From Phycisphaerae bacterium (GTDB taxonomy: Bacteria > Planctomycetota > Phycisphaerae > Sedimentisphaerales > Anaerobacaceae): a DNA stretch of 48,827 nucleotides. Within the stretch, counting starts at the first letter, position 1. Each line of letters begins with the position of its first letter. The DNA lies in assembly GCA_016782755.1 (NCBI GenBank), contig JADHXY010000002.1:1-48827 (forward strand), written 5' to 3'. Both the position numbers and the translations under genes were made by a program. The notes beneath the pieces were generated by a model. The model did not search any database, was not told the origin of the DNA, and worked only from the letters and a program-made list of their open reading frames with translations. Positions 10,368-42,918 of this stretch are shown here, piece by piece.

Positions 10368-11771
10368 ATGAAAAACTTTCTTATAGCAAGAGTAATACCA
10401 ATTTTTTTGGGAGTATTTGGAGCCTTTCTGATATTTATTTGGCTTAGAAGCGATGTTGCGACTGAATTTACGCTGCGACTGCCCGGGGAAGACGGCAGCT
10501 GGCGAAATGTGCTTACTGAAACCGAGCCGATAGAAATTAAAGGGGAACTAATTAAGTTTGATGGCACAACGGCCAATTTGCCCGGCGCATGGCCCCGATT
10601 TAGAGGCTCTAATTTTGATGGCGTCAGCCGTCAGGAAATGCAACTTGCCACCGGATGGCCCGAACAGGGTCCGCCGTTGCTTTGGTCCATCGATGTCGGC
10701 GAAGGATATGCAGGAGCTGCTGTTTTAGCGGGACGGGTCTATGTTCATGATTATGACCGTGAGAATAAATCTGATGTTATTCGTTGTTTGTCACTTGAGG
10801 ACGGTAAAGATATATGGAGCTATTCTTATCCGGTAAAAGTTAAACGAAATCATGGCATGAGCCGGACGGTCCCGGCAGTTACCGAAAAGTATATCGTAAC
10901 TTTGGGGCCAAAATGCCATGTTACATCTCTCGATTCGGTTACGGGCGAATTCAAATGGATGATAAATCTTGTCAGGGAATTTAATACCAAAGTTCCGCAG
11001 TGGTATGCAGGCCAATGTCCCCTTATTGATGACAACAAAGCGATAATAGCTCCGGGCGGTGATTCACTTATGATAGCCGTTGATTGCGAAACTGGGGAAG
11101 TTTTATGGCGAAGTCCTAATCCTAATGGCTGGAAAATGACACATTCCTCGATAATCCCTGCTGAATTTATGGGCAAACGAATGTATATTTATTGCGCAAG
11201 CGGAGCAGTGGTAGGGGTCGATGCTGATGACGGTACTATTTTATGGGAAACAACTGACTGGAAAATTCGCATTGCGAATGTGCCATCACCTGTTCTCGCA
11301 GGTGATGATTTGATCTTTCTTTCAGGCGGCTATAACGCAGGCAGTATGATGCTTAAGTTGAGTGTGGAAAACGAGAAAATAATTGCTAAGCCCCTTTTCA
11401 AACTGGCTCCGGAGGTGTTCGGATCTGCGCAACAGACGCCAATATTTTATAACGGTTATATTTATGGAGTTCGGCCAGATGGGCAATTAACATGCCTTGA
11501 TTTAACGGGAAAGGCCCTATGGACGAGCACAAGTTCTGAAAAATTTGGCCTTGGGCCTTATATCATTATTAATGACTTAATATATTTGATGAATGATTCG
11601 GGGCTGCTTACTTTAGCAAAGGCTGCGGCTGGTGGTTTTGTAAAGCTTGCAGAAGCGAAGGTTCTCGAAGGGCCAGATTCATGGGGGCCTATGGCCGTTG
11701 CCGGAGCTAGATTGATCTTGCGAGATATGAATCGAATGATATGTCTTGATATCAGCGAACATCAAAAGTGA
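10368..11771 (+). CDS. Membrane-anchored PQQ-like beta-propeller protein
   Basis: This 467-residue protein has one N-terminal membrane anchor (VIPIFLGVFGAFLIFIW, about residues 9-25) and a short spacer. Its domain then opens with AWPRFRGSNFDGVSRQE and GPPLLWSIDVGEGYAGAAVL, the opening shared with the 14995 and 21138 proteins here. Blades follow to the end (GPMAVAGARLILRDMNRMIC). It starts 15 bases after the permease stop and probably shares its transcript. The 'PQQ-like' label describes the fold; no cofactor site can be assigned by eye. Its context suggests an extracytoplasmic, membrane-tethered part of the redox or export assembly. Confidence 0.85.
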   Translation: MKNFLIARVIPIFLGVFGAFLIFIWLRSDVATEFTLRLPGEDGSWRNVLTETEPIEIKGELIKFDGTTANLPGAWPRFRGSNFDGVSRQEMQLATGWPEQGPPLLWSIDVGEGYAGAAVLAGRVYVHDYDRENKSDVIRCLSLEDGKDIWSYSYPVKVKRNHGMSRTVPAVTEKYIVTLGPKCHVTSLDSVTGEFKWMINLVREFNTKVPQWYAGQCPLIDDNKAIIAPGGDSLMIAVDCETGEVLWRSPNPNGWKMTHSSIIPAEFMGKRMYIYCASGAVVGVDADDGTILWETTDWKIRIANVPSPVLAGDDLIFLSGGYNAGSMMLKLSVENEKIIAKPLFKLAPEVFGSAQQTPIFYNGYIYGVRPDGQLTCLDLTGKALWTSTSSEKFGLGPYIIINDLIYLMNDSGLLTLAKAAAGGFVKLAEAKVLEGPDSWGPMAVAGARLILRDMNRMICLDISEHQK

Positions 11772-11847: not shown

Positions 11848-12882
11848 ATGGTAAAATTATCAGGTATAACAAAATCTGAAGTATTAGTAGGTCTGTTGGT
11901 GGCAGTTTCAGTTGGTATAGGTGTCGTTGCCCTTGTGCTTTTCGATACAACAGGTGGAAAAGGCAGCGGCCTAGATAAAGACTTCATCTACGATATAGGC
12001 GACAAGGTAAAGATAGACCCGAATCTGATTTTTTACACTGAATCTTCTGTACCTATAGTTACTGGCTTTAAGAAGTCTCACGCAATTGCAATTGACGCCA
12101 ATGGTACCATTTATGCAGCAGGCGACAAAGCCGTTCGTCTATTTGAAAGTAGCGGCAATTCACTTGGAGAAATCCAACTCGACAGCAATCCACGTTGTAT
12201 TACAGTAAGCAAGGACGGCAATATATATATAGGTATGAAAAATCATGTACTGGTGTACGACGCCAATAAAAAGCATTTGGCGAGTTGGCCGCATTTGAAT
12301 AGCGATGCTGTGCTTACCAGTATAGCTGTTTTGAAAAATGACATTTTTGTTGCTGATGCCGGCAACCGAATTGTTCTGCGCTATGATACTAACGGAAAAT
12401 TACTTAGCCGTATAGGCGGCAAAGACAATGACCGGAATATTCCCGGCTTTGTAATACCAAGTCCTTATTTCGATCTTGCTATTGCCGACGACGGCCTTTT
12501 ACGTGTAGTAAATCCCGGCAGACACCGGATTGAGGCTTATACCTTTGATGGCGATCTTGAATTCTGGTGGGGGATTTACTCTCCGAATATTGAAGGATTC
12601 TGCGGTTGCTGCAATCCTGTAAATTTTGTTATTCTCGAAGATGGCAGTTTTGTTACAGCCGAAAAGGGGCTGGTTCGAGTAAAGGTGTATGATATAGATG
12701 GTAATTTTACAGCCGTTGTGGCTGGGCCCGAGCAGTTAGTCAAGTCACATGAGGCGGAAATTTGCCAAATCCCTGCAAATTGTCAGGCTGGTGGTTTTGA
12801 TTTGGCTGTTGATAACAAGCAACAAATTCTCATATTGGATACGATTAAAAATGTTATAAGGACATTTGCAAAGACAAGGTAG
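11848..12882 (+). CDS. Membrane-anchored NHL-repeat-like propeller protein
   Basis: This 344-residue protein has an N-terminal membrane segment (VLVGLLVAVSVGIGVVALVLF, about residues 12-32), then NHL-type repeats: HAIAIDANGTIYAAGDKAVR, RCITVSKDGNIYIGMKNHVL, SIAVLKNDIFVADAGNRIV, FDLAIADDGLLRVVNPGRHR. Two Cys-bearing loops stand out: GFCGCCNPVNF (about 250-260) and EICQIPANCQAGG (about 307-319). They could bind metal or form disulfides outside the membrane. AGAAGG lies before the start. The next gene begins a few bases past the stop. It heads the block of Fe-S genes and may be a sensor or docking part for them; that role is inferred from position only. Confidence 0.8.
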   Translation: MVKLSGITKSEVLVGLLVAVSVGIGVVALVLFDTTGGKGSGLDKDFIYDIGDKVKIDPNLIFYTESSVPIVTGFKKSHAIAIDANGTIYAAGDKAVRLFESSGNSLGEIQLDSNPRCITVSKDGNIYIGMKNHVLVYDANKKHLASWPHLNSDAVLTSIAVLKNDIFVADAGNRIVLRYDTNGKLLSRIGGKDNDRNIPGFVIPSPYFDLAIADDGLLRVVNPGRHRIEAYTFDGDLEFWWGIYSPNIEGFCGCCNPVNFVILEDGSFVTAEKGLVRVKVYDIDGNFTAVVAGPEQLVKSHEAEICQIPANCQAGGFDLAVDNKQQILILDTIKNVIRTFAKTR

Positions 12883-12886
12883 GATA

Positions 12887-13126
12887 ATGGATGAATATTT
12901 CATGAAAATACAAAACCGCCGTCAAATGATAACAGGTACTTTTCGATATGCCGCATTGAGCGTAATCGGTTTTTTTGCGGGTTCGGCTGTTATAAAACGA
13001 CATAGATTGGTAAAGGAAGGCAAATGCATCAGTCGAGGGATATGCGGCGGCTGTGAACTCTACGAAGGTTGTCAATTGCCTTCAGCCTTGTCAAAAAAAC
13101 AATTTTTTTATAGAAAAAAACAATGA
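12887..13126 (+). CDS. Small Tat-signal Cys-rich membrane or periplasmic protein
   Basis: From ATG 12887 (AAGGTAGG just upstream, overlapping the previous stop) this is a 79-residue protein. NRRQMITGTFRYAALSVIGF carries twin Arg followed by a hydrophobic stretch, like a Tat signal or anchor. The remainder holds CISRGICGGCELYEGCQLPS: four Cys spaced C-x5-C-x2-C-x5-C. The four ligands could hold an Fe-S cluster or another metal. The longer TTG start at 12866 lies inside the previous gene and is less likely. Its stop overlaps the next ATG (ATGA). It sits directly before a Tat-signal ferredoxin and probably serves the same complex. I do not recognise a named family. Confidence 0.7.
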   Translation: MDEYFMKIQNRRQMITGTFRYAALSVIGFFAGSAVIKRHRLVKEGKCISRGICGGCELYEGCQLPSALSKKQFFYRKKQ

Positions 13127-13683
13127 CAATCGAGAAAAAAAGTAGACGAAAATTCTTGAAGGATGGACTTTGGGGCACTTGCTTAACGTGCCTGGCAGTC
13201 GTTGCGGGTGCTTTCGCATTTAAAAAACGCGACGACGAAAAGGTATGGCAATTGGACCCTAATAAATGTGTTGCCTGCGGGAATTGTGCCACTTATTGTG
13301 TACTGGAAGAGTCGGCTGTTAAGTGTGTGCACGCATATGCGATGTGCGGGTATTGTGATCTTTGTACAGGTTTTTTTGAGCCGGAACCAAGAGAGCTTGA
13401 TACGGGAGCTGAAAACCAGCTTTGTCCTACCGGGGCAATAAAACGCAGCTTTATTGAAGACCCGTATTATGAATACACAATTGACGAGCCGCTTTGTATC
13501 GGCTGTGGAAAATGTGTTGAGGGCTGTGTCGCTTTTGGAAACGGGTCATTGTTTTTACAGGTTCGGCATGACCGCTGTTTGAATTGCAATGAATGCTCTA
13601 TCGCAGCAGCCTGCCCATCGCAGGCCTTTAAGCGTGTTTCAGCCGATGAGCCGTATCTAATCAAAAAGGCAGGGCACACTTAA
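13123..13683 (+). CDS. Tat-exported 4Fe-4S ferredoxin (NapG-like)
   Basis: The 186-residue protein starts with KKSRRKFLKDGLWGTCLTCL, a clear Tat motif (S-R-R-x-F-L-K), so it should fold with its clusters in the cytoplasm and then cross the membrane or stay anchored. Cys blocks follow: CVACGNCATYC, CVHAYAMCGYCDLC, a lone C in QLCPTGA, LCIGCGKCVEGC, and CLNCNECSIAAACP. This is the layout of NapG/MauM-type periplasmic ferredoxins with up to four [4Fe-4S] clusters. It overlaps its neighbours on both sides (ATGA upstream, TAATG downstream), so it is translated together with the NapH-like membrane protein, its expected partner. Confidence 0.88.
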   Translation: MTIEKKSRRKFLKDGLWGTCLTCLAVVAGAFAFKKRDDEKVWQLDPNKCVACGNCATYCVLEESAVKCVHAYAMCGYCDLCTGFFEPEPRELDTGAENQLCPTGAIKRSFIEDPYYEYTIDEPLCIGCGKCVEGCVAFGNGSLFLQVRHDRCLNCNECSIAAACPSQAFKRVSADEPYLIKKAGHT

Positions 13684-15011
13684 TGTTACGCTTCGGTCAT
13701 ATCTCAATCTGTATCTTCATCTCCATTGTTTTATGCGGTGTTGTGTTTGGGGCCGAGCGATTTCCGCCGCCTGATTTTGATGAAAGCGGCCACGAACTGC
13801 CGTCAACAGATTATATAACCAACATCACACCCCGTCATACTATCTACAATTATTTAGACGTTGCGGTATTAGTGGCGGCTCTTTCATTGTCATCCTGGTT
13901 CGTCCTAAAAAAACGTTCAAGACGGTCGGTATTTATTTTAATGGTATTTTCATTAGTTTATTTCGGCTTCTGGCGGAAAGGTTGTATATGTCCAATAGGA
14001 GCTATTCAAAACTTTTCTTTATCAATTTTCGATCATAATTATGCCCTTTCAGTTACGGCGATCTTATTTTTGATATTGCCGTTGATTTTCACTTTGTTTT
14101 TTGGGCGAACCTTTTGTGCCGGTGTATGTCCGCTTGGTGCTATTCAGGATTTAGTAGTATTGCGTCCCATTAAAGTTCCATCGTGGCTGGAAAGCAGCCT
14201 GCGATTATTTGCCTATATATATCTTGCCGCTGCAATTCTTTTTGCCGCAACAGGCAGTGCTTTTATAATATGCCGATATGACCTGTTTATATCCTTCTTT
14301 CGCCTGTCGGGTCATCTGAATATGTTGATACTTGGTTGCTGTTTCTTAGTAATCGGAATGTTCGTAGCCCGTCCTTATTGCCGATTTATCTGTCCATACG
14401 GTGTTATCCTCAGGCAACTTTCCAGACTTTCTAAATGGAAAGTGACGATCACCCCGGATGATTGTATTAAATGCAAGTTGTGCGAAGATTCCTGTCCATT
14501 TGGAGCCATTACAAAACCGACTGTAGAATGGCCGCAAATCGGTTATACCAAAAGCAGGAAGTTATTGGCTTTGTTGATCCTTCTTCTGCCTGTGCTGATA
14601 TTTTTAGGCGGATTCGGTGGTTCAAGCCTTAACCGGTCATGGTCACGTATGCATGCAACTGTCAGATTAGCAGAGCGCATTTATTTAGAAAACCAGGGCC
14701 TGCTAAGCGAAACTACGGATGCGAGTTCAGCGTTCAGGGCAACTGGTGAACCCATAGAAGACCTCTATGACCAGGCCTCTGTAATAAGAAAACAATTTAA
14801 GTTTGGGGGCTGGCTGTTGGGATCTTTTATCGGTTTGGTTGCCGGCCTTAAACTAATAATACCATCTATTAGAAGACAAAGGACGGATTTTCAGGCCGAC
14901 AGTGCAAGCTGCTTAGCTTGCGGCAGGTGCTTTAAGTACTGCCCTAAGGAACAGGTCAGATTAAAAAGTTTAAGCGAAAAACAGGAAATCGCAGATGACG
15001 ACAAAATATGA
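13683..15011 (+). CDS. NapH-type polytopic membrane protein with 4Fe-4S clusters
   Basis: This 442-residue membrane protein belongs to the NapH/CcoG-like group that relays electrons across or within the membrane. It has the repeated signature WRKGCICPIGAIQNF, RTFCAGVCPLGAIQDL and RPYCRFICPYGVILR among about six membrane segments. A cytoplasmic cluster site DDCIKCKLCEDSCPFGAI follows, then another membrane segment, a periplasmic stretch, a last membrane segment (WLLGSFIGLVAGLKLII) and a C-terminal site SCLACGRCFKYCPKE. Its three-fold CPxGA motif differs from the usual two of NapH. It directly follows the NapG-like gene with a one-base overlap, so the two probably form one electron-transfer module. 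Confidence 0.88.
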   Translation: MLRFGHISICIFISIVLCGVVFGAERFPPPDFDESGHELPSTDYITNITPRHTIYNYLDVAVLVAALSLSSWFVLKKRSRRSVFILMVFSLVYFGFWRKGCICPIGAIQNFSLSIFDHNYALSVTAILFLILPLIFTLFFGRTFCAGVCPLGAIQDLVVLRPIKVPSWLESSLRLFAYIYLAAAILFAATGSAFIICRYDLFISFFRLSGHLNMLILGCCFLVIGMFVARPYCRFICPYGVILRQLSRLSKWKVTITPDDCIKCKLCEDSCPFGAITKPTVEWPQIGYTKSRKLLALLILLLPVLIFLGGFGGSSLNRSWSRMHATVRLAERIYLENQGLLSETTDASSAFRATGEPIEDLYDQASVIRKQFKFGGWLLGSFIGLVAGLKLIIPSIRRQRTDFQADSASCLACGRCFKYCPKEQVRLKSLSEKQEIADDDKI

Positions 15012-16719
15012 CAATCAAAACTCCGATAAGAGCATGAAGGCATCCTGGTATGAGGCAGCTAAAGGTGGCGCTGTTGTAGCAGGTGTATTTTCCGTGATAA
15101 TACTTGGGTTGCTCGTCTTAAATTATCTGCAAAAAGAATTACTTGACCCCGTGCGTGCAGAGAGACTGGAGAATCTGAAGGTAACACTTATTGAACAACC
15201 TAAAAACGAACAGTTAATAAATACTATTCGCGAACTCGACCTGCAACTGAGGAAAGATAAAATTCGCCGTCTTCAATTCTCACAAAAAGGAGGTCTGTTA
15301 CTGCTTGGGGCTGTTGGGGTCTTTCTTATTGGAATAAAATCAGCCAAAGCATTCAAAGCAAAGCTGCCTCATCCAACGGCTGTTACCGATCAACAGGCTC
15401 GACAAATCCGGCAGGCTATATTAGCACGTTGGGTTACAGTTGCAAGTTTGGCTGTTTTAGTTTTAGCCGTTTTGTTCTTTATTAATACCCCCCCAATTGA
15501 TTTTGCAGGGGCCGTATCATCCTATCTTTCTGATGAAGAAATCGCCAAAAACTGGGCCAGTTTTCGAGGGCCTCAGGGAAGCGGCATAAGCGCGTACACT
15601 AATATCCCAACTAAATGGGACGGCAAGTCGGGAGAATCTATTATATGGAAAACCGCTGTGCCATTGCCTGGTCATAACTCACCGGTAGTCTGGGGCGATC
15701 GCGTTTTTCTCACAGGCGCGAATAAGCAGAAGCGTCAGGTTTATTGTTTTGATGCGATTTCGGGAAAGTTGTTGTGGCAGGCTGATATGATAAACCCTGC
15801 TTCGGCTGCCGACAAAACACTCGATATGTATGAAGATACCGGTTACGCTGCATCGACCGTTGCAACGGACGGCAGAAGGGTATGTGCAATTTTCCCTACT
15901 GGTGATGTCGGGTGTTTTGATTTTGAAGGCAAAAAGCTATGGTCGAGAAATTTGGGAACACCTGACAGTATGTATGGATATGCTTCTTCGCTTGCTATGT
16001 ACCAAAATCTGCTTTTAATTCAGTATGACCAGGCAACTGCTGATGATAATAAATCAAAAATGATAGCTTTAGATACTTTTTCAGGTGCGACAGTTTGGGA
16101 AACCAAACGCCCGGTTCCTGGTTCCTGGACATCGCCAATAGTAATCAAGATCGGCGGCCAGAGTCAACTAATCACCTGTGCCGAGCCATGGGTAATAGCT
16201 TATAACCCATCGAACGGGGTCGAACTGTGGCGTGTAGAGTGTCTTGGAACAGATGTCGCTCCTTCGCCGATCTATGCAGGCGGTTTGATATTCGGTATAC
16301 ATTCCTATAACTCGCTGGTCGCAATAAAACCTACAGGTCAGGGCGATGTAACCAAAACCCATATTGCATGGAAAGCAGCCGACAACATCCCAGATATTTG
16401 TTCGCCGGTCAGCAACGGTAAATTGATATTTCTACTTGAATCCTATGGAAAACTTACCTGTTATAATGTTAGTGATGGTACAAAGCTTTGGGAAGAAGAT
16501 TTGAAGACAAGCTTTACGTCCTCGCCGAGCCTGGTCGGAGACCGGCTGTACCTGCTAAGCGAAAAGGGAATTATGTCTATTGCGAAAGTTGGAAGCGAAT
16601 ACACGGAAGTGGCTAAAAGTTCCTTAGGTGAAAAATGTTACGCTTCACCGGCTTTTTCTGACGGACGTATTTATATCCGAGGTGTCGAAAATCTCTATTG
16701 CATTGGTGATAAAAATTGA
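14995..16719 (+). CDS. PQQ-like propeller protein with an N-terminal membrane domain
   Basis: This 574-residue protein has membrane segments near residues 25-45, 98-115 and 145-163, with a charged helical stretch (about 50-95) between the first two. A propeller then opens with WASFRGPQGSGISAYTNIPT. Blades run to the end (ASPAFSDGRIYIRGVENLYC). AGGAAA lies 9 bases before ATG 14995, which is inside the NapH-like gene (17-base overlap), so the two are coupled. Compared with the single-anchor propellers nearby, the three-segment membrane part suggests direct contact with the NapH-like subunit. No cofactor site is evident. Confidence 0.83.
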   Translation: MTTKYDNQNSDKSMKASWYEAAKGGAVVAGVFSVIILGLLVLNYLQKELLDPVRAERLENLKVTLIEQPKNEQLINTIRELDLQLRKDKIRRLQFSQKGGLLLLGAVGVFLIGIKSAKAFKAKLPHPTAVTDQQARQIRQAILARWVTVASLAVLVLAVLFFINTPPIDFAGAVSSYLSDEEIAKNWASFRGPQGSGISAYTNIPTKWDGKSGESIIWKTAVPLPGHNSPVVWGDRVFLTGANKQKRQVYCFDAISGKLLWQADMINPASAADKTLDMYEDTGYAASTVATDGRRVCAIFPTGDVGCFDFEGKKLWSRNLGTPDSMYGYASSLAMYQNLLLIQYDQATADDNKSKMIALDTFSGATVWETKRPVPGSWTSPIVIKIGGQSQLITCAEPWVIAYNPSNGVELWRVECLGTDVAPSPIYAGGLIFGIHSYNSLVAIKPTGQGDVTKTHIAWKAADNIPDICSPVSNGKLIFLLESYGKLTCYNVSDGTKLWEEDLKTSFTSSPSLVGDRLYLLSEKGIMSIAKVGSEYTEVAKSSLGEKCYASPAFSDGRIYIRGVENLYCIGDKN

Positions 16720-19070
16720 TGGATAAGCTGGATTTAACATTTGTGGATATGGCCGTCGAACAAATCGGAACGGGCCGGGAAAAAGTCCTTGAGATTGCCC
16801 AATGCATACAGGAACATTTCGGATATCTGCCCAAAGAAGCTCTTGAGCGGGTATGCGAATTGACAGATATAACGCCGGCGTCGATTGTCGGAGTTACGAC
16901 TTTTTACGATCAGTTTCGGCAGCAACCAGCTGGCAAGCACATAATAAAAATTTGCATTGGAACAGCCTGTCACGTTAAAGGAGCTGGACAGATTTATGAG
17001 GCATTTCAGCGACACCTCGGTATCGCCGATGACGAGGACACAGATTCGGAAAAAATGTTTACTGTTGAGAAGGTGGCCTGCCTCGGCTGTTGTATGCTCG
17101 CCCCGGCGATACAGATTGATGACATTATTTTTGGGCACCTGACAAATGAACATGTCCCGATGGTAATAAGAGATTTCCTCGAGCAGGAAAAGGCTCGAGA
17201 GCGGCAGGTCAGTAAGCAGGAATATACAAAAAGCGTCAAATACCTTGGTGAAATCCGGATATGTCTTGATTCGAGTTGTGTCGCAAGTGGTAGTGGGAAG
17301 GTATATAACGCATTAAAAACAGCCGTCGAACAATCTGGTGTGGCGGTTGTGGTAAAAAATGTGGGATGTTCCGGCATGTCGTTCCTGGCGCCTCTTGTGG
17401 AAGTCGTTTCAGTGGACGGAGCCTCATTTCGCTATGCGAGAATCCAGCCTCAGGATGCCATGGCGATTGTCTTGAGGCACTTTAAACCGAGGCAATTCGG
17501 ACAAAAAATCAAAAATACTGTTTCTGACATGCTTGATAAGATACTTACCGACAGGGCATGGGAACCTGTGACGCGCTATTCGATAGATGTGCGGGATCAA
17601 CCGGTGGCGGTATTTCTGGAGAAGCAAAAACATCTGGCTACTGAACACTGCGGGGATATCGATCCTGTCGACCTTGATGAATATATTCGCAACGATGGAT
17701 TCGAGGCGCTGCGTCATTGCATAACTGGGTTGAGTCCCGAAGAAATTATCAGAGAGATTGAACACAGCGGGCTTCGTGGAAGAGGTGGAGCCGGCTACCC
17801 CACATATCTTAAATGGTCCGCTGTATGTGATAGGAAGTCGGATAAGAAATACGTAATTTGCAATGGCGATGAGGGTGATCCAGGCGCCTTTATGGATCGT
17901 ATGCTGATGGAATCTTATCCCTACCGCATAATTGAGGGTGTAACGATGGCTGCATACGCTGTCGGGGCGGATGAAGGTTATTTTTACATTCGAGCGGAGT
18001 ACCCACTCGCAATTAAACGAATGACTGAGGCGATAAACAAGTGCTGCCGGCGTGGTTTTCTCGGGAACCATGTATTGGATAGCAAATTTTCATTGAATCT
18101 TAAGATTATTGCTGGCGCAGGAGCCTTTGTGTGCGGCGAAGAGACTGCGCTTATGGCCAGCATAGAAGGCCGCCGCGGTATGCCACGGTTAAGGCCTCCC
18201 TATCCAGTTGAAAGCGGACTTTGGGGAAAACCAACACTTATTAATAACGTAGAAACCTGCGCGGTGATGCCATGGATTATACGCAATGGCGCTGCAGCAT
18301 TCGCCAAAATAGGAATGGGTAGCAGTAAGGGAGCGAAAGTATTTGCGCTTGCGGGCAAGGTCGCTCGAGGGGGACTTATTGAAGTTCCCATGGGTATTTC
18401 AATAAGGCAGATTGTAGAAGATATTGGTGGTGGAATTGCCGAGGGCAAAAAATTTAAGGCTGTGCAGATTGGAGGGCCTTCCGGTGGCTGTGTGCCTGCT
18501 GAATTATCTGATATCCCCATCGGGTTTGAATCGCTAAATGACGTCCATGCGATGATGGGTTCCGGCGGCATGGTTGTACTGGATGAGTCGGACTGTATGG
18601 TTGACATAGCAAAGTATTTTCTTGAGTTTACACAGAATCAGTCCTGTGGAAAATGTACTTTCTGCCGCATAGGGACTCGGCGAATGCTTGATATTCTTGA
18701 GAGGCTCTGCGAAGGCAATGGCAAGAACGGTGATATCGAAGAATTAGAAAAATTGGCACAGATGGTGAAAAAAGCAAGTTTATGCGGTCTTGGAACAACC
18801 GCTCCTAATCCGGTTCTTTCAACAATCAGATATTTCAGGGATGAGTATGAAGCTCATATCGAAAAACGCTGCCCTGCCAGCAAATGTAAAGCACTGATTA
18901 CATATTCGGTTACAGACGACTGTATCGGGTGCACTTTGTGCTCGCAGCATTGCCCTGCTGATGCTATCGAGATGAGACCTCATGAAAAACACGAGATAGA
19001 CAGCGAAAAGTGTATCCGCTGTAATACATGCAAAAGCATATGTCCAACTGACGCGATAAAGGTTGAGTAA
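16719..19070 (+). CDS. NuoE-NuoF-ferredoxin fusion (NADH-oxidising diaphorase subunit)
   Basis: This 783-residue fusion resembles HydB/HndC-type NADH dehydrogenase subunits. NuoE-like thioredoxin fold (about 1-155): cluster Cys in CIGTACHVKG and ACLGCCMLAP. Second thioredoxin-like ferredoxin (about 170-250): CLDSSC and VGCSGMSFLAP, where the usual fourth Cys is Ser (codon 17379-17381). NuoF (about 330-690): FMN/NADH sites GRGGAGYPTYLKW and NGDEGDPGAFMDR, GAGAFVCGEETAL, and cluster N3 SCGKCTFCRIGTRR with CGLGTTAPNP. C-terminal 2x[4Fe-4S]: CIGCTLCSQHCPADAI and CIRCNTCKSICPTDAI. It should oxidise NAD(P)H and pass electrons to Fe-S partners. No hydrogenase or formate dehydrogenase catalytic subunit is present. 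ATG 16719 overlaps the previous stop (TGATG); TTG 16716 is unlikely. Confidence 0.93.
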   Translation: MDKLDLTFVDMAVEQIGTGREKVLEIAQCIQEHFGYLPKEALERVCELTDITPASIVGVTTFYDQFRQQPAGKHIIKICIGTACHVKGAGQIYEAFQRHLGIADDEDTDSEKMFTVEKVACLGCCMLAPAIQIDDIIFGHLTNEHVPMVIRDFLEQEKARERQVSKQEYTKSVKYLGEIRICLDSSCVASGSGKVYNALKTAVEQSGVAVVVKNVGCSGMSFLAPLVEVVSVDGASFRYARIQPQDAMAIVLRHFKPRQFGQKIKNTVSDMLDKILTDRAWEPVTRYSIDVRDQPVAVFLEKQKHLATEHCGDIDPVDLDEYIRNDGFEALRHCITGLSPEEIIREIEHSGLRGRGGAGYPTYLKWSAVCDRKSDKKYVICNGDEGDPGAFMDRMLMESYPYRIIEGVTMAAYAVGADEGYFYIRAEYPLAIKRMTEAINKCCRRGFLGNHVLDSKFSLNLKIIAGAGAFVCGEETALMASIEGRRGMPRLRPPYPVESGLWGKPTLINNVETCAVMPWIIRNGAAAFAKIGMGSSKGAKVFALAGKVARGGLIEVPMGISIRQIVEDIGGGIAEGKKFKAVQIGGPSGGCVPAELSDIPIGFESLNDVHAMMGSGGMVVLDESDCMVDIAKYFLEFTQNQSCGKCTFCRIGTRRMLDILERLCEGNGKNGDIEELEKLAQMVKKASLCGLGTTAPNPVLSTIRYFRDEYEAHIEKRCPASKCKALITYSVTDDCIGCTLCSQHCPADAIEMRPHEKHEIDSEKCIRCNTCKSICPTDAIKVE

Positions 19071-19071
19071 A

Positions 19072-20559
19072 ATGGCCAAACTTGTAATTGATAATATTAA
19101 TGTTGAAGTTGACAGTGGCGAGACTGTACTTGATGCTGCCAAAAAGATTGGAATCGAAATACCTACAATGTGTTTTTTGAAGGAATATAAGGCTTTAACC
19201 AGTTGTATGATATGCGTAGTAAAAATCGAAGGTGTCGAATCATTGATGCCTGCCTGTGGGACAATTGCAACAGATGGGATGAAAGTAGAAACATCTTCTG
19301 AGGAGGTTTGTCAAGCCAGGAAAGTTGCCCTGGAATTGTTGTTAAGCGACCACCTTGGTGACTGCATGGGGCCGTGCCAGGTTATCTGTCCTGCAGGAAT
19401 GAACATTCCGTTGATGATTAGGCAGATTAAAGCGGGCCGATTAGAAGATGCAATTGTAACGGTAAAACAGGATATTGCTATGCCAGCAGTATTGGGCAGG
19501 ATTTGCCCTGCCCCGTGCGAAAACGGATGCAGACGTGCGAAGTTCGATCAACCAGTTTCAATTTGTCTATTGAAACGATATGTAGCAGATGTTGATTTGT
19601 TCTCGGCTCAACCATACCAGCCTGTATGTGAACCGAAAAAAGATAAACGCATCGCTATCGTCGGGGCTGGACCAGCCGGCTTATCCGCTGCTTATTATCT
19701 GCTCCAGAAAGGATACACTTGTACCATCTATGACGACCATGACAAGCCGGGGGGAATGTTGCGATATGCTGTTTCGCGGGATAAACTGCCGGAAGATGTC
19801 CTAGACAAGGAAATAGCTCTTATAGAAAAACTCGGTGCAAAATTTCAGGGAAAAACAAAAATTACTTCGGCTAAAGAGTTGCAGGAAGACTTCAATGCGG
19901 TTTTAATAGCCGCTGGTCAGACCGAACTGGCCGATAGAGATTTGATGGGCGTATTTGCTATACCCAACACTGCTGCAAGGCAGAAACTTGCCGTGCGTGC
20001 GGTCGCAGAAGGCAAAAAAGCAGCTATCGCAATCGATGAGTTTCTATCAGGCCGTAATGTAACAGGCCCGCAGAAAAAGTTTAATAATCGTATTGGTAAA
20101 TTGCAGGAGAATGAGATAGATAACTTTATGTTGCTGGCGGATCACTCTTCACGTGTATCGCCGTTACGCAAGAGTGAAGGATTTACTGACGAGCAAGCTA
20201 AACAGGAATCCGGTCGTTGTCTGCATTGTGACTGCCGCAAAACCGATAGTTGTAAACTAAGACAATACAGCCAGCAGTATCAGGCCAGGCAGAACAGATA
20301 CAAGGGCAAAAGAAATTTGTTCAGCCAACAAATTCAACATCCCTGTATAATTTATGAACCCGGTAAATGTATAAAATGCGGTCTTTGCATCCAGATCGCC
20401 TCTGAGGCAAAAGAAGAATATGGCCTGACATTCATAGGCCGAGGCTTTGATGTAAAGGTAGCTGTTCCATTCGATAAATCTCTCGCCGAAGGGCTTAGCC
20501 GTATCGGTCATAAATGCGTCGAAGCCTGCCCGACGGGTGCGATGGCTTTGAAAGATTAG
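19072..20559 (+). CDS. [2Fe-2S]-GltD-like flavoprotein fusion lacking the NAD(P)H domain
   Basis: This 495-residue protein begins with a NuoG/HydA-type [2Fe-2S] domain (Cys in IPTMCF, TSCMIC, MPACGT). The GltD N-terminal Fe-S domain follows (DCMGPCQVICPAGMNIPL, GRICPAPCENGC), then an FAD domain with GAGPAGLSAAYYLL (Gly198) and PGGMLRYAV. In GltD an NAD(P)H domain of about 130 residues with its own GxGxxG comes next. Here IAAGQTELADRDLMGVF jumps straight to the last FAD segment (KLAVRAVAEGKKAAIAIDEF), and the usual A-G-G-D is AIPN. A Cys-rich tail follows (CLHCDCRKTDSC, CIKCGLCIQIAS, CVEACPTGA). It probably relays electrons to or from the NuoEF fusion rather than binding NAD(P)H itself. ATG 19072 has AAGG upstream; TTG 19063 is an alternative. 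Confidence 0.85.
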   Translation: MAKLVIDNINVEVDSGETVLDAAKKIGIEIPTMCFLKEYKALTSCMICVVKIEGVESLMPACGTIATDGMKVETSSEEVCQARKVALELLLSDHLGDCMGPCQVICPAGMNIPLMIRQIKAGRLEDAIVTVKQDIAMPAVLGRICPAPCENGCRRAKFDQPVSICLLKRYVADVDLFSAQPYQPVCEPKKDKRIAIVGAGPAGLSAAYYLLQKGYTCTIYDDHDKPGGMLRYAVSRDKLPEDVLDKEIALIEKLGAKFQGKTKITSAKELQEDFNAVLIAAGQTELADRDLMGVFAIPNTAARQKLAVRAVAEGKKAAIAIDEFLSGRNVTGPQKKFNNRIGKLQENEIDNFMLLADHSSRVSPLRKSEGFTDEQAKQESGRCLHCDCRKTDSCKLRQYSQQYQARQNRYKGKRNLFSQQIQHPCIIYEPGKCIKCGLCIQIASEAKEEYGLTFIGRGFDVKVAVPFDKSLAEGLSRIGHKCVEACPTGAMALKD

Positions 20560-21137: not shown

Positions 21138-23588
21138 ATGGAAACACAAAGAAAAATGACAAAATATTTACTGATTATAGCATTTTTATTAATATTAAGC
21201 GGCATTCATACAGTTGCATGGGCCGCTGACTGGCCCAACTGGCGTGGGCCGAACTATAATGGAATATCCGCAGAAAAGGACTGGGACCCGCTAAAGATAA
21301 AAGACGGCACAAAGCCATTGTGGCAGACTTCGATCGGGATTGGTTTTTCAGCAATTTCTGTAAGCGATGGTCTGGCTTATACAATGGGCAACACCGGTAC
21401 CAAGGGTGAAGATGAAAGCAAACACAATGACATCATCTTCTGCTTTGATGCTGAAACCGGCAAAGAGGTGTGGAGGCGCATTTATCCTCAACCATTGGAT
21501 CCAAAATATTACGAGGGAGGCTCATTAGCAACTCCCACGATTGACGGTGACAAAGTTTATACTATCAGCAAGGATGGAAAAGTCTTCTGCCTTGATGCCA
21601 AAACGGGCAACGTGGTTTGGAACAGAGATATATCATCAGAAGAATTTGGCATTAAACGCACCACTTGGGGCCATTCTGGTTCACCATTAGTTATCGATAA
21701 TATGGTTATTTATAACGCAGGCGGCATGGGGGTTGCTCTTAATAAAGACAACGGCAGTTTGATCTGGGAAGGCGACAAGGAGCCGGGCGGATACGCAACT
21801 GTGGTGCCTTTCATGACAGGTAATCAAAAATGCATCGCACTGTTTGGATTCAAAGATATTATTGGATTAGTCGCGGAAACTGGAAAAGAGTTGTGGAGGT
21901 TTCCCTGGAAGACAAAACACGATGTCAATGCCGCCGACCCGATTATTGTAGGCAATAAGATATTTATATCCTCCGGATACGGGATCGGCTGTGCGCTGTT
22001 GAAAATCGAAAACGCAAATGTCACCGAAATATGGCGCAATAAGAATATGTGCAATAAAATGAACGGTTCCGTATTTTTGAGGGGCTATATTTACGGCGTG
22101 GACGAAGGTGGTGAACTGAGATGTCTGGATTCTGAAACGGGTGATATTGTCTGGGCACAAGGTGGATTTGGCATGGGAAGCCTTATGGTTGCCGACGGCA
22201 AACTAATCGTTCTGGGTGAAAATGGCAATTTAGTTATCGCTGATGCGACAGCCGACGGCTACAAGGTTATTTCTGAAGCGAAGATCCTTTCTCCCAGGTG
22301 TTGGAGCGTTCCTGTTCTGGCTAACGGCAGAATTTACGCCCGCAACGCCGGCGGAGATATGGTTTGTTTAGATGTCAGCGAAAATGCAGTTACAGCAGTA
22401 CCGACTTCGACAGGAAACAACTGGCCTCAGTGGCATGGCGCAAATCGTGACGGCAAATCAAATGAAAAGGAACTTTTGAAGAAATGGCCTGAGCAAGGCC
22501 CAGAACTTTTGTGGTCAACAAAGGAGTTAGGAGCCGGCTTTTCAACGGTTTCTATTGCAGATGGTCTTATCTACACAACGGGGATGAAAGACAAAGAGGG
22601 AGTGCTTTTTGCTTTCGACCTCCACGGTAAATTAAAATGGAAGCAATCATACGGCATCGAGTGGACAAAGTCGTATCCGGGTACGCGATGTACCCCAACC
22701 GTAGATCAGGGCAATGTTTATGTTATAAGTGGTGTAGGTGCGGTTAGCTGCTTTGATGCAAAAACAGGTAATAAAAAATGGACAGTAGATGCCTTAACAG
22801 ATTTTGAAGGTAAATACGGCAGCTGGGGAGTTGCTGAATCACCGCTTATTGTCGGCAACAAATTAATTTGTACGCCCGGTGGCCAGAAAGTATCGTTAGT
22901 TGCACTTGACAAAAAAACCGGTAAAGTTTTCTGGACAGCAAAAGGAAACGGTGAAGGAAGCGCTTACTGCTCCCCACTTCTAATTGAAAAAAAGGACAAA
23001 AAAATTATCGTTACTATGCTGGAAAATTTTATTATAGGTGTTGATGCAGCAAACGGAAATATCCTCTGGGAGTATGACTGTAAAAATTATCAGGGCAAAC
23101 CAAAAGACGTTAATCCGAATACACCGGTATTTTACAAAGGGTATATATACATTACAAGCGGTTACGGCAAAGGAGGAGCAAAGCTGAAACTTTCCGATGA
23201 CGGCACAAAAATCGAATCACAGGAATGGTTAAATCTCACACTTGACTGTCATCACGGCGGAGTTGTTCTTGTTGACGGCTATATATACGGAACCAACCAC
23301 AAGGGAAACTGGATTTGCCTCGACTGGAAAGACGGTAAAGTGATGTATGACACAGAAGGCATCGGGAAGGGCTCGGTAACTTACGCTGACGGCATGCTGT
23401 ACTGCTATGAAGAAAAAGAAGGCACAGTCGGGCTGGTGAAGGCGACTCCTGAAAAATTTGACATTGTCAGCTCTTTCAAGGTTCCCAAAGGTACAGGGAA
23501 GCATTGGGCTCATCCGGTAATTTTAGACGGCATACTATATATCCGCCATGGCGATACTTTGATGGCTTATGATATAAAAGCAAAATAA
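21138..23588 (+). CDS. Secreted double PQQ-like propeller protein
   Basis: This 816-residue protein has a cleavable signal peptide (KYLLIIAFLLILSGIHTVAW, cut likely after AWA) and AAGGAG before ATG 21138. The mature part is two full propellers in tandem. The first opens WPNWRGPNYNGISAEKDW (about residue 31), the second WPQWHGANRDGKSNEKELLK (about residue 427). Each proceeds through the same order of blocks (GFSAISVSDGLAYT against GFSTVSIADGLIYT; then the G-x-Y-Y/W-G blade series), so the protein arose by internal duplication. It has no anchor and should be periplasmic. Only one base separates its stop from the TTG codon before the ferredoxin gene, so it is also linked to the terpenoid operon. 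Confidence 0.88.
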   Translation: METQRKMTKYLLIIAFLLILSGIHTVAWAADWPNWRGPNYNGISAEKDWDPLKIKDGTKPLWQTSIGIGFSAISVSDGLAYTMGNTGTKGEDESKHNDIIFCFDAETGKEVWRRIYPQPLDPKYYEGGSLATPTIDGDKVYTISKDGKVFCLDAKTGNVVWNRDISSEEFGIKRTTWGHSGSPLVIDNMVIYNAGGMGVALNKDNGSLIWEGDKEPGGYATVVPFMTGNQKCIALFGFKDIIGLVAETGKELWRFPWKTKHDVNAADPIIVGNKIFISSGYGIGCALLKIENANVTEIWRNKNMCNKMNGSVFLRGYIYGVDEGGELRCLDSETGDIVWAQGGFGMGSLMVADGKLIVLGENGNLVIADATADGYKVISEAKILSPRCWSVPVLANGRIYARNAGGDMVCLDVSENAVTAVPTSTGNNWPQWHGANRDGKSNEKELLKKWPEQGPELLWSTKELGAGFSTVSIADGLIYTTGMKDKEGVLFAFDLHGKLKWKQSYGIEWTKSYPGTRCTPTVDQGNVYVISGVGAVSCFDAKTGNKKWTVDALTDFEGKYGSWGVAESPLIVGNKLICTPGGQKVSLVALDKKTGKVFWTAKGNGEGSAYCSPLLIEKKDKKIIVTMLENFIIGVDAANGNILWEYDCKNYQGKPKDVNPNTPVFYKGYIYITSGYGKGGAKLKLSDDGTKIESQEWLNLTLDCHHGGVVLVDGYIYGTNHKGNWICLDWKDGKVMYDTEGIGKGSVTYADGMLYCYEEKEGTVGLVKATPEKFDIVSSFKVPKGTGKHWAHPVILDGILYIRHGDTLMAYDIKAK

Positions 23589-23604
23589 GTTGAAAAGGCT
23601 GGAA

Positions 23605-24417
23605 ATGATTCTTTTTTGTAATTGCGGCTATTCAGAAATTATCGACCATAGTATTAGGGCTGATATATTAGATAAGCTCGCAGATACAGGGTGTGATTTT
23701 GAAGTGGTTCAGGATTTATGTGAATTAGCTGCGAAAAAGGATCCTAAGTTTAAACGCTGGGCACAAGCTGATTCGCTGACAATTGTCGCCTGTTACCCTC
23801 GGACGTTAAAATGGCTTTTCAGTTTAGCAGATGCCGAGCTGGATACTGAGAAAACCCAATTTCTTAACATGAGGACAAGCACTGCTGAGGAAATTCTTGC
23901 ATCCTTGCTTGGCAAAAAAACTCCTGTCGAGGATAAACGAAAAATTCAACTTGAAGAAAAGGGAGATTGGATACCATGGTTTCCGGTAATTGACTATGAC
24001 CGATGCAAAAATTGCATGCAATGCCTCAACTTTTGTCTTTTTGGAGTTTACGAACTTTCTGAAAATGAGCAGGTTCAGGTAACCAATCCTGCCGGCTGTA
24101 AGACGAACTGTCCAGCCTGCGCGAGGCTATGTCCTCACAATGCAATTATATTCCCAAAATACCCCGACAGTCCAATCAACGGCGATGATGTTGATGAGAG
24201 CAAAAAAACGGAACTGAATCCTGATGAGATTTACAAAAGACTTAAACGGCGAAGCAAAACTAAAAAACGATTTGAAAAAGATAGAGCGGGTCGGGAGGAA
24301 ATAGATTTGACGAGGCTTAAAGATCAGTTGGGAATTCCTTCGGAGGTTTTAGAGTCTCTAAAACCCTCAGATGTGACTGAATTGCGGAAAAAGTCGGAGA
24401 AGAAGAACCGTGAGTAA
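23605..24417 (+). CDS. 4Fe-4S ferredoxin-type protein heading the terpenoid operon
   Basis: From ATG 23605 (GAAAAGG 6 bases upstream) this is a 270-residue protein; TTG 23590 would add five residues. The N-terminal part (about 1-110) starts [14 protein letters not shown] and has [12 protein letters not shown], resembling a small domain seen ahead of ferredoxins but not one I can name. A ferredoxin domain follows: [18 protein letters not shown] and [17 protein letters not shown], two [4Fe-4S] sites. The C-terminal third is highly charged and helical ([14 protein letters not shown]). The stop overlaps the radical SAM start by 8 bases. It is the natural electron donor for that radical SAM enzyme. 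Confidence 0.85.
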
Positions 24418-25948
24418 ACAACGACTAAGGCCCCTGGTAGTTCTTGTCGCCGACAGGACACTCAGTGCTGACTATAAAATATTGTTTGAGGGCATCTTTG
24501 CCACTATGCAGACTACGCATGTCCCCGAAGTCGCAATGAGACACTTTGTTTCGCCGCGAGTTGCCGTTGACAGTGATGGCCGTGCAAAAACAGCACCTTT
24601 GGGATTACGCCGAGTTGAATCTGCACTTCTTGAGTTCACCGATCTGACAGAACAAGATATTGTTTGCACAACACCAGAAGCTTTGCTGGACTTGTTAGGC
24701 CCATGGGTTAAAGTTGTTGCTTTTAGTTCCAGCGATCCGCTCGGAAAAGGTATGAGCAATACCACGACAGATAATTTCTGGGACGGCGAGCTTTATACCA
24801 GGTACTGGACAAGAAATATGCTTGAGAAGATTCTTGCAGCAAAGAAAAAATATCAATTTAAAGTTGTTGCAGGCGGTGCGGGGGCATGGCAGCTTGTTCG
24901 TTATGACGATGAAATCGCGAAAGAGTGCATCGATGTGATTTTTGAAGGTTATTTTGAGGAACTCGGGCCTGGGCTTTTTACTGACATCTTAAACGAAAGG
25001 TCCGTGGAAACACATATCTGTGAAAAAGGCTCGTCGGTTGAAAAAGTGCAGCCAATAAAACATGCTTCTACCCTTGGCATTATAGAGCTTTCTCGAGGCT
25101 GCGGAAGAGGATGCAAATTCTGTACGATGGCTGGAAAGAAAATGGAACATCTTTCGCCGGATACAATTATAGCTGACCTGCAAACAAACGTCGCTAATGG
25201 CGTAACTTCCGTCGTCAGTGGCAGTGAGGATTTCTTCAGATATGGCGCAAAAGGACTAAAGCCGGATTTCGATAAACTCCAGGATCTTCTCGAGCAGATG
25301 CGAAAAATCAAAGGTCTATCTTTTATGCAAGTAGATCATGGCAATATTACAAGTGTGATGCAGTTGTCAGACGAGCAGCTAAGAGAAACCAGAAGGCTGC
25401 TTTCATGGAACAAAAAAACTGATTACCTCTGGGTTAATATGGGTATTGAAAGTGCTAACGGACAACTGGTCTCTGCTAACTGTCCCGGCAAAATATCACC
25501 ATTTGACCCGGATGACTGGGAGCATCTAATACGTCAGACCGCCGAGCGTATGAAAATGACCGGCTTCTTTTCTGTGTTCAGTTTGATTTTAGGCCTTCCA
25601 GGCGAAACACCTGATGATATCAAAAAAACTCTCAAGCTTGTTCGATATCTCGGAAAGCAAAATGCGGTAATTTTCCCGGTCTTTTATGAGCCTTTATATG
25701 ATGGGCAGAAACCCTTTACAATCGATGATATGCGAATCGACCACCTTGAGTTGTACAGGACGTGTTATGAGATAAATTTCAAAATGGTTCCACGATTATA
25801 CTGGGATAATCAGCGAGCCGGCGGCGTATCATGGCTCAAACGAGTGGCTATACGCATCTTAGGCAAAACGGAAGTTGCTGCATGGAGAAATAGTTTTAAG
25901 AAAATTCAAAAGCAACTTCAAAACAGCCAGACTGTTGGAGAAAATTAA
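24410..25948 (+). CDS. Radical SAM enzyme, cobalamin-binding-like N-terminus
   Basis: This 512-residue enzyme starts at GTG 24410. The radical SAM cluster motif is [20 protein letters not shown] with Cys231, Cys235 and Cys238; later blocks ([38 protein letters not shown]) are those of the B12-binding-type Elp3/MiaB-like barrel. The N-terminal 200 residues ([37 protein letters not shown]) have the outline of a B12-binding Rossmann domain, but a D-x-H-x-x-G cobalamin motif is not visible, so cobalamin use is uncertain. The substrate is unknown. Its place between a ferredoxin and a DUF116-polyprenyl synthase suggests a reaction on an isoprenoid or on the co-substrate of the pathway. Confidence 0.88.
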
Positions 25949-25950
25949 AA

Positions 25951-27624
25951 ATGTCTGACAATAGCATAAATAAAACCGACTCGAAATCCAGGCAGGAAAA
26001 AATACCGCACTCTAAGGATATGCGCGACAAGCTCGCCGGCTTTGCTGAAGAATATGTCCGCGAAAAGAAACTTGTTGGTCCTTTGCCGCTCGGTCAATTG
26101 CAAAAACACTGCCATGCGATAATAAAAGATAGGAAAATAAACAGCTCTTACATTGATTTTTTAGCTGTTCTTATAAATAACGAAGTATGGCGTGAAGCTG
26201 TAGCAGCCACTCCTTACGAGAAACGGCTGCTTTTGCTGCCAAAATGTTTGCGTGACAACGAAAACTGTCCGGCAGATTTTGACCAGTTGGGGCTGGCTTG
26301 TGAAAATTGTGGTAGCTGTCCAATCGGTGACATAAAATCACAGGCTGAAGAACTCGGGCTTATGGTTCTTATTGCTGAGGGTTCACCCATCGTAATGTCA
26401 CTTATACAGACAGGGAAGATTGAGGCAGTTATCGGGGTTAGCTGCCTTTCTGTACTTGAAAAAACATTCCCTTATATTGAAGCTGGAGCCGTGCCGTCTC
26501 TGGCGATCCCACTATTATACGATGGTTGCGTCAATACCAATGTAGATGTTGATTGGGTGCTCGATGCTATTTATGAAAAAAGCAATGACGGTAAAAGCCG
26601 GCTTGACTTGCGGGATTTACGTGACAAAGTAAACAGCTTGTTCGAAGAGGATTCTTTGAAAACATTTTTGGCATTAGGTGCAAGTCAAACTGAAACCCTG
26701 GCGTTGCGGTGTCTTTCAGGTGATGGTAAAAGATGGCGTCCCTTGCTGGTAGTGTATGCACACAAGGCAATAGCGGTTGAAGCTGATAACGACCTTTGCA
26801 GGGATCTTTTTAAAACTGCAATTGCAGTAGAATGTTTCCATAAGGCCTCTTTGATACATGACGACATAGAAGACGGAGATCTTTTGCGATATGGCAAAAG
26901 GACGATGCATGCTGCATTTGGGATTCCAATTGCGCTGAATGTTGGTGATTTTTTGCTTGGAGAAGGTTACCGTCTTCTGGCGGAACTCGAACTGTCACAA
27001 GATATAAAAGCGAAAATGTTAAAGGTGGCCGCCCAGGGACACAGGCAGCTTTGCCTCGGACAGGGCATGGAACTCGGGTGGGTCAGAAATCCGAAGCCTT
27101 TGTCAATTGCGCAGGTAATTGATATCTTCCAGAAAAAGACATCGCCTGCGTTTGAAGTAGCGTTAAAGCTGGGCGTATTATCAGCAGGCAAAAAAACGGG
27201 TTTGGATGCACTTATAGAAAAATATTCAAATGCCCTTGGGATCGCCTACCAGATTAAAGACGATATAAACGATTTTGATTCGAACACGGATTTTGATGAT
27301 GTTGCAAGGAGTCGGCCTTCAATATTGCTGGCGATTGCGTGGGAAAAAGCTCAAAGTAAGGACAGGCAACTGCTTGAGTCACTTTGGCAAAACCATCGGC
27401 AATCTGAGACCGTCGGAGAGTCGGTTGCAGAAACCGCTACCAGGCTGAGAGTTAAAACAATTGCGATGAAATTGATGGAGACTTATAAACACAGGGCAGT
27501 CTCTTGCCTTGAGTCGACCGAAGACATTTCGTTTAAAGGTTTGCTGAGGAGAATCATTAGTAAAATATTCAATGAAATCGACATTCTGGACTGTTGCAAT
27601 GACTATAAGACTGGAAATGATTAG
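25951..27624 (+). CDS. DUF116-polyprenyl diphosphate synthase fusion
   Basis: The 557-residue protein joins two families. Residues about 20-210 are DUF116, with the Cys set LPKCLRDNENCPADFDQLG then ACENCGSCPIGDIK and VSCLSVLEK, a likely Fe-S or metal site. Residues about 235-535 are an all-helical trans-prenyl synthase: first Asp-rich motif HDDIEDGDLLRYGKRTMH (Asp304, Asp305, Asp308), second QIKDDINDF (Asp437, Asp438, Asp441), with RPLL near the start and GQGMELGW between them. It should extend allylic diphosphates with IPP. The residues before the first DDxxD that set chain length (VECFHKASLIHDD) do not allow a safe prediction by eye. It starts 2 bases after the radical SAM stop. DUF116 proteins commonly neighbour radical SAM genes; direct fusion to a prenyl synthase is notable. 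Confidence 0.92.
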   Translation: MSDNSINKTDSKSRQEKIPHSKDMRDKLAGFAEEYVREKKLVGPLPLGQLQKHCHAIIKDRKINSSYIDFLAVLINNEVWREAVAATPYEKRLLLLPKCLRDNENCPADFDQLGLACENCGSCPIGDIKSQAEELGLMVLIAEGSPIVMSLIQTGKIEAVIGVSCLSVLEKTFPYIEAGAVPSLAIPLLYDGCVNTNVDVDWVLDAIYEKSNDGKSRLDLRDLRDKVNSLFEEDSLKTFLALGASQTETLALRCLSGDGKRWRPLLVVYAHKAIAVEADNDLCRDLFKTAIAVECFHKASLIHDDIEDGDLLRYGKRTMHAAFGIPIALNVGDFLLGEGYRLLAELELSQDIKAKMLKVAAQGHRQLCLGQGMELGWVRNPKPLSIAQVIDIFQKKTSPAFEVALKLGVLSAGKKTGLDALIEKYSNALGIAYQIKDDINDFDSNTDFDDVARSRPSILLAIAWEKAQSKDRQLLESLWQNHRQSETVGESVAETATRLRVKTIAMKLMETYKHRAVSCLESTEDISFKGLLRRIISKIFNEIDILDCCNDYKTGND

Positions 27625-42854: not shown

Positions 42855-42918
42855 ATAAATCTTCCATGAATTTAATCGATTTGCTTTGGTTAGTTTTAAC
42901 AAAAAAGTGGGGATTTTG

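Follow-up and report, generated by a model that had tools for sequence, protein, structure and literature searches.

The protein that we call GltDt is, on our reading, the A-type subunit of an electron-transfer enzyme of the Bfu family that has lost its NAD(P)H-binding domain. The larger finding, absent from the original prediction, is the conserved membrane and periplasmic operon around the pair formed by GltDt and its NuoF-like partner. We consider the chances slightly better than even (roughly 0.55) that a Bfu-type enzyme has here had its third partner switched from NADP(H) to a trans-membrane Fe–S conduit, with GltDt acting as an Fe–S wire that carries a relic flavin domain, a reading built on sequences and gene order. 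The features concerned, all within the 48,827-nucleotide stretch of DNA that was analysed (the window), are collected in Table 1; "short members" are relatives of GltDt that share the missing domain.

Table 1. Positions in the window of GltDt, its motifs and the surrounding genes
Feature	Position	Strand	Remarks
Truncated BfuA/StnC-type subunit (GltDt)	19072..20559	+	495 aa from ATG; TTG start at 19063 also possible
[2Fe-2S] ligands C34, C45, C48, C62 of GltDt	19171..19257	+	each in 68/69 short members; remaining row without N-terminus
H94, C98, C102, C106 of GltDt, His-Cys cluster region/first GltD cluster motif	19351..19389	+	alignment
C145, C149, C153 of GltDt, second GltD-type cluster motif	19504..19530	+	68, 68 and 69 of 69 short members
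FAD P-loop GAGPAG, GltDt residues 198-203	19663..19680	+	GxGxxG in 67/68 short members
Deletion junction, GltDt residues G282-F295 (GQTELADRDLMGVF)	19915..19956	+	about 150 NAD(P)H-domain residues absent
AIPN at AGGD position of GltDt	19957..19968	+	alignment
C383, C386, C388, C394 of GltDt, further Fe-S motif	20218..20253	+	69/69 short members
C433, C436, C439, C486 of GltDt, one [4Fe-4S] cluster of the C-terminal ferredoxin fold	20368..20529	+	alignment
NuoE-NuoF fusion (BfuC+BfuB)	16716..19070	+	NADH/FMN site, [2Fe-2S] C1, clusters B1-B4 with B2 His
PQQ_C, membrane-anchored PQQ-like beta-propeller protein	14995..16719	+	three hydrophobic segments
NapH-like membrane Fe-S protein	13683..15011	+	two [4Fe-4S] motifs, CxxxCP motifs, seven hydrophobic segments
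FeS186 ferredoxin	13123..13683	+	Tat-like RRKFLK leader, 19 Cys, probably four [4Fe-4S] clusters
NHL-repeat protein, core operon member	11848..12882	+	invariant vicinal Cys pair
PQQ_B beta-propeller protein, core operon member	10368..11771	+	synteny
ABC ATPase and MacB/FtsX-like permease, accessory	6340..10352	+	directly downstream of GltDt in several Armatimonadota
PQQ_A beta-propeller protein, accessory with ABC genes	4330..5532	+	
PQQ_D double beta-propeller protein, accessory	21138..23588	+	
Ferredoxin-like protein, radical SAM protein, DUF116-polyprenyl synthetase fusion, accessory	23590..27624	+	

Three lines of evidence agree that the second Rossmann domain is missing, as the original prediction had claimed. 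The Pfam matches are Fer2_4, Fer4_20 and a Pyr_redox_2 match confined to the first ~110 of its 291 positions, and the resulting domain order is [2Fe-2S], GltD-type [4Fe-4S], FAD half-domain and C-terminal Fe–S part, without an NAD(P)H domain. The best PDB matches are StnC (8oh5), a Caldicellulosiruptor homologue (9bov) and NfnA of Thermococcus sibiricus (9n5u); the alignment runs to about residue 287 and picks up again at about residue 462 (9bov), skipping the stretch of StnC-type proteins that holds the NADP(H) domain, and passages of PMC10482914 describe an NADPH site in StnC. Finally, the AAG and VFA motifs that flank the gap lie 12 residues apart in GltDt, against 164–187 residues in 12 full-length relatives. 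The uninterrupted reading frame (19063 or 19072 to 20559, from the open reading frames of the window) and the intact FAD motif were likewise described correctly. AIPN does stand at the AGGD position, but the Asp of that motif is itself present in only 31 of the 68 short members, as compared with 11 of the 12 full-length ones. A small DGC-domain protein follows GltDt immediately on the opposite strand (20556–20933).

Plain GltD, with which the protein had been compared, was rejected as a comparator: the Stn/PRK12814 type fits far better in both the NCBIfam and the PDB matches. The top NCBIfam match is PRK12814 (NF009454), a full-length family annotated as a putative NADPH-dependent glutamate synthase small subunit. 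GltDt matches it in two stretches, over the first 290 residues and at the C-terminus, for which it is the closest family, and stays below its cut-off (419.6 against 916 bits); the scores against the GltD/GltA families TIGR01316–01318 are also below the cut-offs (145.2/471.75, 124.7/447.7 and 107.8/482.95 bits). Since GltDt should be compared with the A-type subunits of Stn and Nfn-Bfu, its terminal Fe–S domains are ancestral, inherited from the Stn/PRK12814 type and not, as had been proposed, added at both ends. Their ligands are conserved to a high degree. H94, C98 and C102 are found in 69/69 short members and C106 in 68/69; in the C-terminal ferredoxin fold, C433, C436 and C439 are found in 69/69 and C486 in 67/69, with two rows stopping before it, while the ligand set of a second cluster in that fold is incomplete.

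Judged from the aligned relatives, the NAD(P)H domain was lost long ago and not by a recent deletion. The gap is common to 68 short members, the window included, in which the distance from AAG to VFA is 6–49 residues (median 33), and since all short relatives share it, it is due neither to chance nor to an assembly accident. Both events that could have undermined the original prediction, a recent deletion and an assembly error at 19.92–19.95 kb, were thereby rejected as causes of the domain loss. The 82-row alignment behind these counts left out proteins that scored below 340 bits, had fewer than 430 residues after trimming or were near-identical to others, among them L007 and the fragments L052–L054; L030 belongs to neither class, and L045 is counted among the 69 short members and not among the 68. 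One genome (G017; L007/L055) has a 633-aa GltDt homologue with a C-terminus unlike the family after residue 406, perhaps through a frameshift in that assembly.

The extent of the loss varies in a way that suggests a graded dismantling of the NADP(H) site. A basal operon member with the BfuCB fusion and PQQ_C (L072) has kept the domain with a decayed motif, its GxGxxA reading GLDAAA; in most members the domain is gone; the window copy is shorter by another ~20 residues, the strand GI.VD..T.QT, and lacks AGGD, and in two others (L083 and L084) the strand ahead of AGGD is missing in a similar way; in L086, finally, the P-loop and three of the cluster Cys are gone, yet the operon is kept. On the other hand, all 18 ligand Cys are intact in 65/68 short members, the exceptions being two that end ahead of the last Cys (L022 and L042) and L086, the only one with substitutions. 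Two further positions were transferred from StnC using the alignment to the PDB matches and PMC10482914, parts of which report very low activity for StnC R239A. The lysine cluster ligand K170 is kept in 63/69 short members, and the R239 position is Arg in only 10/69 short as opposed to 12/12 full-length members, with Lys in GltDt.

We built two quick trees, one of 81 rows and then one of 46 rows, the latter omitting, among others, the long rows L085, L086, L028 and L030. In the 46-row tree, rooted on the full-length relatives, the operon clade has a support of 99; at its base branch the short L080 and then L072, and 37 short members group at 98. A single clade of short forms is not rejected by these sequences (p-AU 0.553), so that the NAD(P)H domain may have been lost only once, but the tree itself, with the short L080 outside L072, does not show this.

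By prediction, the FAD half-domain is able to fold without the NAD(P)H domain. AlphaFold2 models built on 18 alignment rows reached a mean pLDDT of 82.4 for GltDt and 84.4 for the short relative L033, whose FAD half-domain is predicted with high confidence. The L033 model aligns with 9bov_A over 500 residues (Z 39.9, 2.9 Å) and with NfnL (5jfc) over 253 (Z 29.9, 1.6 Å); as its residues 98–351 cover residues 48–472 of the NfnL chain, ~170 NfnL residues are without a counterpart. The window model superposes on NfnL over 228 residues, also at 1.6 Å. The junction (residues 281–310) has low model confidence in GltDt and is confident in L033.

The neighbouring gene, taken earlier for a NuoF that binds NADH, keeps the NADH/FMN site as claimed but actually encodes a NuoE–NuoF fusion with a bifurcating-type core. 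It consists of NuoE (BfuC), the thioredoxin-like N-domain of BfuB, the FMN domain with the loop LRGRGGAG, and two C-terminal [4Fe-4S] motifs, and its best PDB match is of the StnB/HydB type. Among 54 fusions, the window included, the ligands of C1, B1, B2 (four Cys and a His), B3 and B4 are kept in 53–54, those of C1 (C80, C85, C122 and C126) and the B2 His (H714) in every one; the alignment was restricted to rows that span at least ~700 residues of the query. In B5, the N-terminal [2Fe-2S] cluster, the fourth Cys is present in 42/54 fusions and replaced by Ser in 12/54, including the window, and the position of the first is variable, too. GltDt has the ligands of the minimum clusters of a BfuA, A1 and A2 (C34/C45/C48/C62 in 68/69 and H94/C98/C102 in 69/69), the mapping of these sites to A1 or A2 being ours. 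The fusion form of BfuC and BfuB goes unmentioned in the main text of PMC9304861. At three loci (L065, L110 and L111), genes are inserted between the fusion and GltDt, at L065 (11793–12914) one for a radical SAM protein.

The fusion and GltDt close an operon with a conserved order: beta-propeller, NHL, Tat-type ferredoxin, NapH-like protein, beta-propeller, BfuC-B fusion and truncated BfuA. In 45 other genomes, with each gene counted only at loci whose upstream DNA reaches far enough, the short form is adjacent to BfuCB in 42/45, PQQ_C in 40/44, the NapH-like gene in 38/43, FeS186 in 35/41, NHL in 33/39 and PQQ_B in 28/36; the three genomes without an adjacent BfuCB have the fusion elsewhere, beside the PQQ_C, NapH-like, FeS186 and NHL genes. 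None of the 19 full-length loci has NapH-like, FeS186 or NHL neighbours, and the fusion and PQQ_C occur only at L072 among them. Presence and absence tell the same story: GltDt and the NapH-like protein are found in the identical 28 of 60 relatives (own genome included), and the fusion (E 1e-200) in 26 of these 28 and in 0 of the other 32, the two misses (G032 and G056) having a mere piece of the fusion at a contig end. The cluster Cys of FeS186 are conserved in 36 homologues and the motif Cys of the NapH-like protein in 41/41. We call the latter NapH-like only, as it scores 45 bits against TIGR02163 (cut-off 213); a PDB sequence search with it gave nothing at E 0.001, and its seven segments come from hydrophobicity only. 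The heme motif CxxCH is absent from the eight window neighbours checked.

The surroundings of the operon offer some observations of their own. The pair C254–C255 of the NHL protein is invariant (29/29) and possibly a redox-active disulfide. Positions 23590–30372, after the operon, encode a ferredoxin-like protein, a radical SAM protein, a DUF116-polyprenyl synthetase fusion, a prenyltransferase-type toroid and a squalene-hopene cyclase; the radical SAM protein occurs in 11/60 relatives (own included), all within the 28 GltDt genomes, and parts of the set lie near the operon at four other loci (L065, L082, L115 and L117). Perhaps a terpenoid pathway is linked to the operon. Farther away (35819–42902, reverse strand), a UvrD-like helicase with a PD-(D/E)XK nuclease domain beside a 1151-aa frame looks like an AddAB-type pair. 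The genome itself and most relatives (21/23) have Rnf/Nqr genes, and no match to the 49-kDa subunit of complex I was found in the own genome at 85% completeness; given these Rnf/Nqr-type genes and the lack of a complex I match, NADH/ferredoxin chemistry is likely to be present there.

The short form is widespread, occurring in 28/60 related genomes (own included), and a scan of a genome collection gave 23 loci, some from the same genomes as the 60-genome set. Of 294 genomes sampled from Planctomycetota, 37 match the GltDt profile at E 1e-60; in 20, counting the own genome, one unbroken match covers the complete model, which marks the protein as a short form. For Armatimonadota, the phylum of the Chthonomonas locus, the figures are 37/201 and 27. 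A locus titled Deltaproteobacteria (L046) was placed in Myxococcota by the tree tool; 122/297 genomes of its phylum match the profile, two with short forms over the whole model, the other listed matches being partial and many of them longer GltD-type proteins. Two loci titled as of the Actinomycetes group (L034 and L037) sit inside a planctomycete family (f1), either as mislabelled bins or through transfer.

Put together, GltDt would be the A-type subunit of a Bfu (HydABC/Stn-like) enzyme and would descend from an A subunit of the Stn/Nfn-Bfu type that was linked to NADP(H) and then lost its NAD(P)H domain. Electrons would pass between NADH and ferredoxin at BfuCB and a conduit of the NapH-like protein and FeS186 by way of the GltDt clusters, the third partner having presumably changed from NADP(H) to one in the membrane or periplasm; the direction is a guess, the likelier one being outward, with NADH and reduced ferredoxin oxidised together. 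The flavin domain may then be a relic or structural element without hydride transfer; its erosion is furthest advanced in the window copy and L083–L086. Ligands that stay conserved while the flavin side decays are what one would expect of a subunit that needs its clusters and not hydride transfer. The earlier idea of a flavin or Fe–S relay that no longer binds NAD(P)H is supported as regards the absent domain and the kept Fe–S ligands; FAD may still bind, with the P-loop kept but the residues near the isoalloxazine relaxed. Some observations speak against our reading. Synteny as seen in these genomes shows functional linkage, not a physical complex; a P-loop in 67/68 short members would seem to exceed the needs of a pure relic; and the Rnf/Nqr genes provide another outlet for ferredoxin and NADH. 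Still more tentatively, and at somewhat less than even odds, the operon may define a new trans-envelope class of Bfu-type bifurcating enzymes in at least Planctomycetota and Armatimonadota, in which GltDt as an Fe–S adaptor would couple NADH and ferredoxin via the NapH-like protein to an exported multi-cluster ferredoxin and beta-propellers. A widespread and uniform operon would then direct the third branch of Bfu to a membrane/periplasmic Fe–S chain and give a concrete electron outlet, or inlet, to bacteria mostly known from assembled genomes.

The flavin may, of course, still be at work. FAD could be bound, and its face, bared where the NAD(P)H domain used to be, could serve for the docking or one-electron gating of another protein, for instance the cytoplasmic ferredoxin domain of the NapH-like protein, making GltDt a real flavin relay. 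In favour of this, the acidic residue after beta-2 is conserved as often as GxGxxG (both 67/68), GG in 66/68 and R231 in 60/68 short members, and the confident half-domain of L033 superposes closely on NfnL. We nevertheless find this rather unlikely: the R239 equivalent is something other than Arg in 59/69 short members, the AGGD Asp is kept in only 31/68, the strand before it is lost in the window, L083 and L084, and L086 has dispensed with the P-loop and three cluster Cys without losing the operon. Far less credible, to the point of being nearly negligible, is an assembly error or decaying pseudogene at 19.92–19.95 kb: while the window copy is ~20 residues shorter than most relatives, lacks AGGD and falls in model confidence at the junction, the gap is found in all short relatives, the frame is open, the Fe–S ligands are intact and L083 and L084 show a similar extra loss.

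Other doubts concern the enzyme rather than the subunit. Sequence cannot reveal bifurcation, and a simple NADH dehydrogenase, in which BfuCB and GltDt feed the membrane Fe–S proteins, would give the same operon logic. We think this improbable as B2–B4 and the B2 His, kept in 53–54/54 fusions, are absent from non-bifurcating homologues according to Schut et al. 2022 (PMC9304861). B5 has Ser as its fourth ligand position in 12/54; the StnB passages of PMC10482914 list no B5 either, and Stn bifurcates. It is similarly doubtful that BfuCB and GltDt form a soluble enzyme with which the NapH-like, ferredoxin and propeller genes are merely co-regulated. GltDt does lie apart from the remaining operon in three Armatimonadota, and the L061 and L063 genomes carry the NapH-like gene on a different contig, but the shared presence in 28/60 genomes holds even when the genes are unlinked, and no other candidate third partner is equally conserved beside the pair.

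A flavin domain without its nucleotide-binding counterpart has a parallel in HdrA, whose TrxR-type FAD domain likewise has no functional NAD(P)H site; the domains of HdrA are, however, arranged otherwise, and its FAD is the bifurcating flavin. For Bfu enzymes, the accessible part of one survey (PMC9304861) gives a third substrate that is cytoplasmic or, in Nuo-Bfu and Mbh-Bfu, a proton-pumping membrane arm, and lists 17 BfuB clades without an assigned function; because our comparison stops at its main text, the GltDt clade may be among the unnamed ones. Neither the operon nor a BfuA without the NADP domain is described in the portions seen of PMC9304861, PMC10482914, PMC11406978 and PMC11266412, and on truncated GltD, NapH- or propeller-linked Bfu, and Bfu in these phyla, the open-licence literature gave no description of this system.

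Among the closest known systems is the Sporomusa StnABC, whose StnC (8oh5; 9bov from Caldicellulosiruptor) arranges its [2Fe-2S], GltD [4Fe-4S], FAD domain, Cys-rich linker and C-terminal ferredoxin fold as GltDt does, has a BfuB/BfuC pair of the bifurcating type as partner and shares the K170 ligand. Unlike StnC, GltDt has no NAD(P)H domain and no FdhF-like C-terminal half, has not kept R239 and has an incomplete ligand set for the second C-terminal cluster; its BfuC and BfuB are fused, and the system is linked to membrane and periplasmic Fe–S proteins. The Nfn-BfuA of T. sibiricus (9n5u) has a similar architecture and, like GltDt, retains the ligands of only one C-terminal cluster out of two, being without A4 according to parts of PMC9304861, but it has kept the NADP(H) domain and uses NADPH. 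The GltDt system also resembles Nuo-Bfu, for which the same survey, as far as available, proposes that a Bfu core feeds a quinone-linked membrane partner and counts Planctomycetes among the hosts; whereas Nuo-Bfu is described there as a 14-gene complex of the complex I type, the GltDt operon has a NapH-like protein, a Tat-type ferredoxin and beta-propellers instead.
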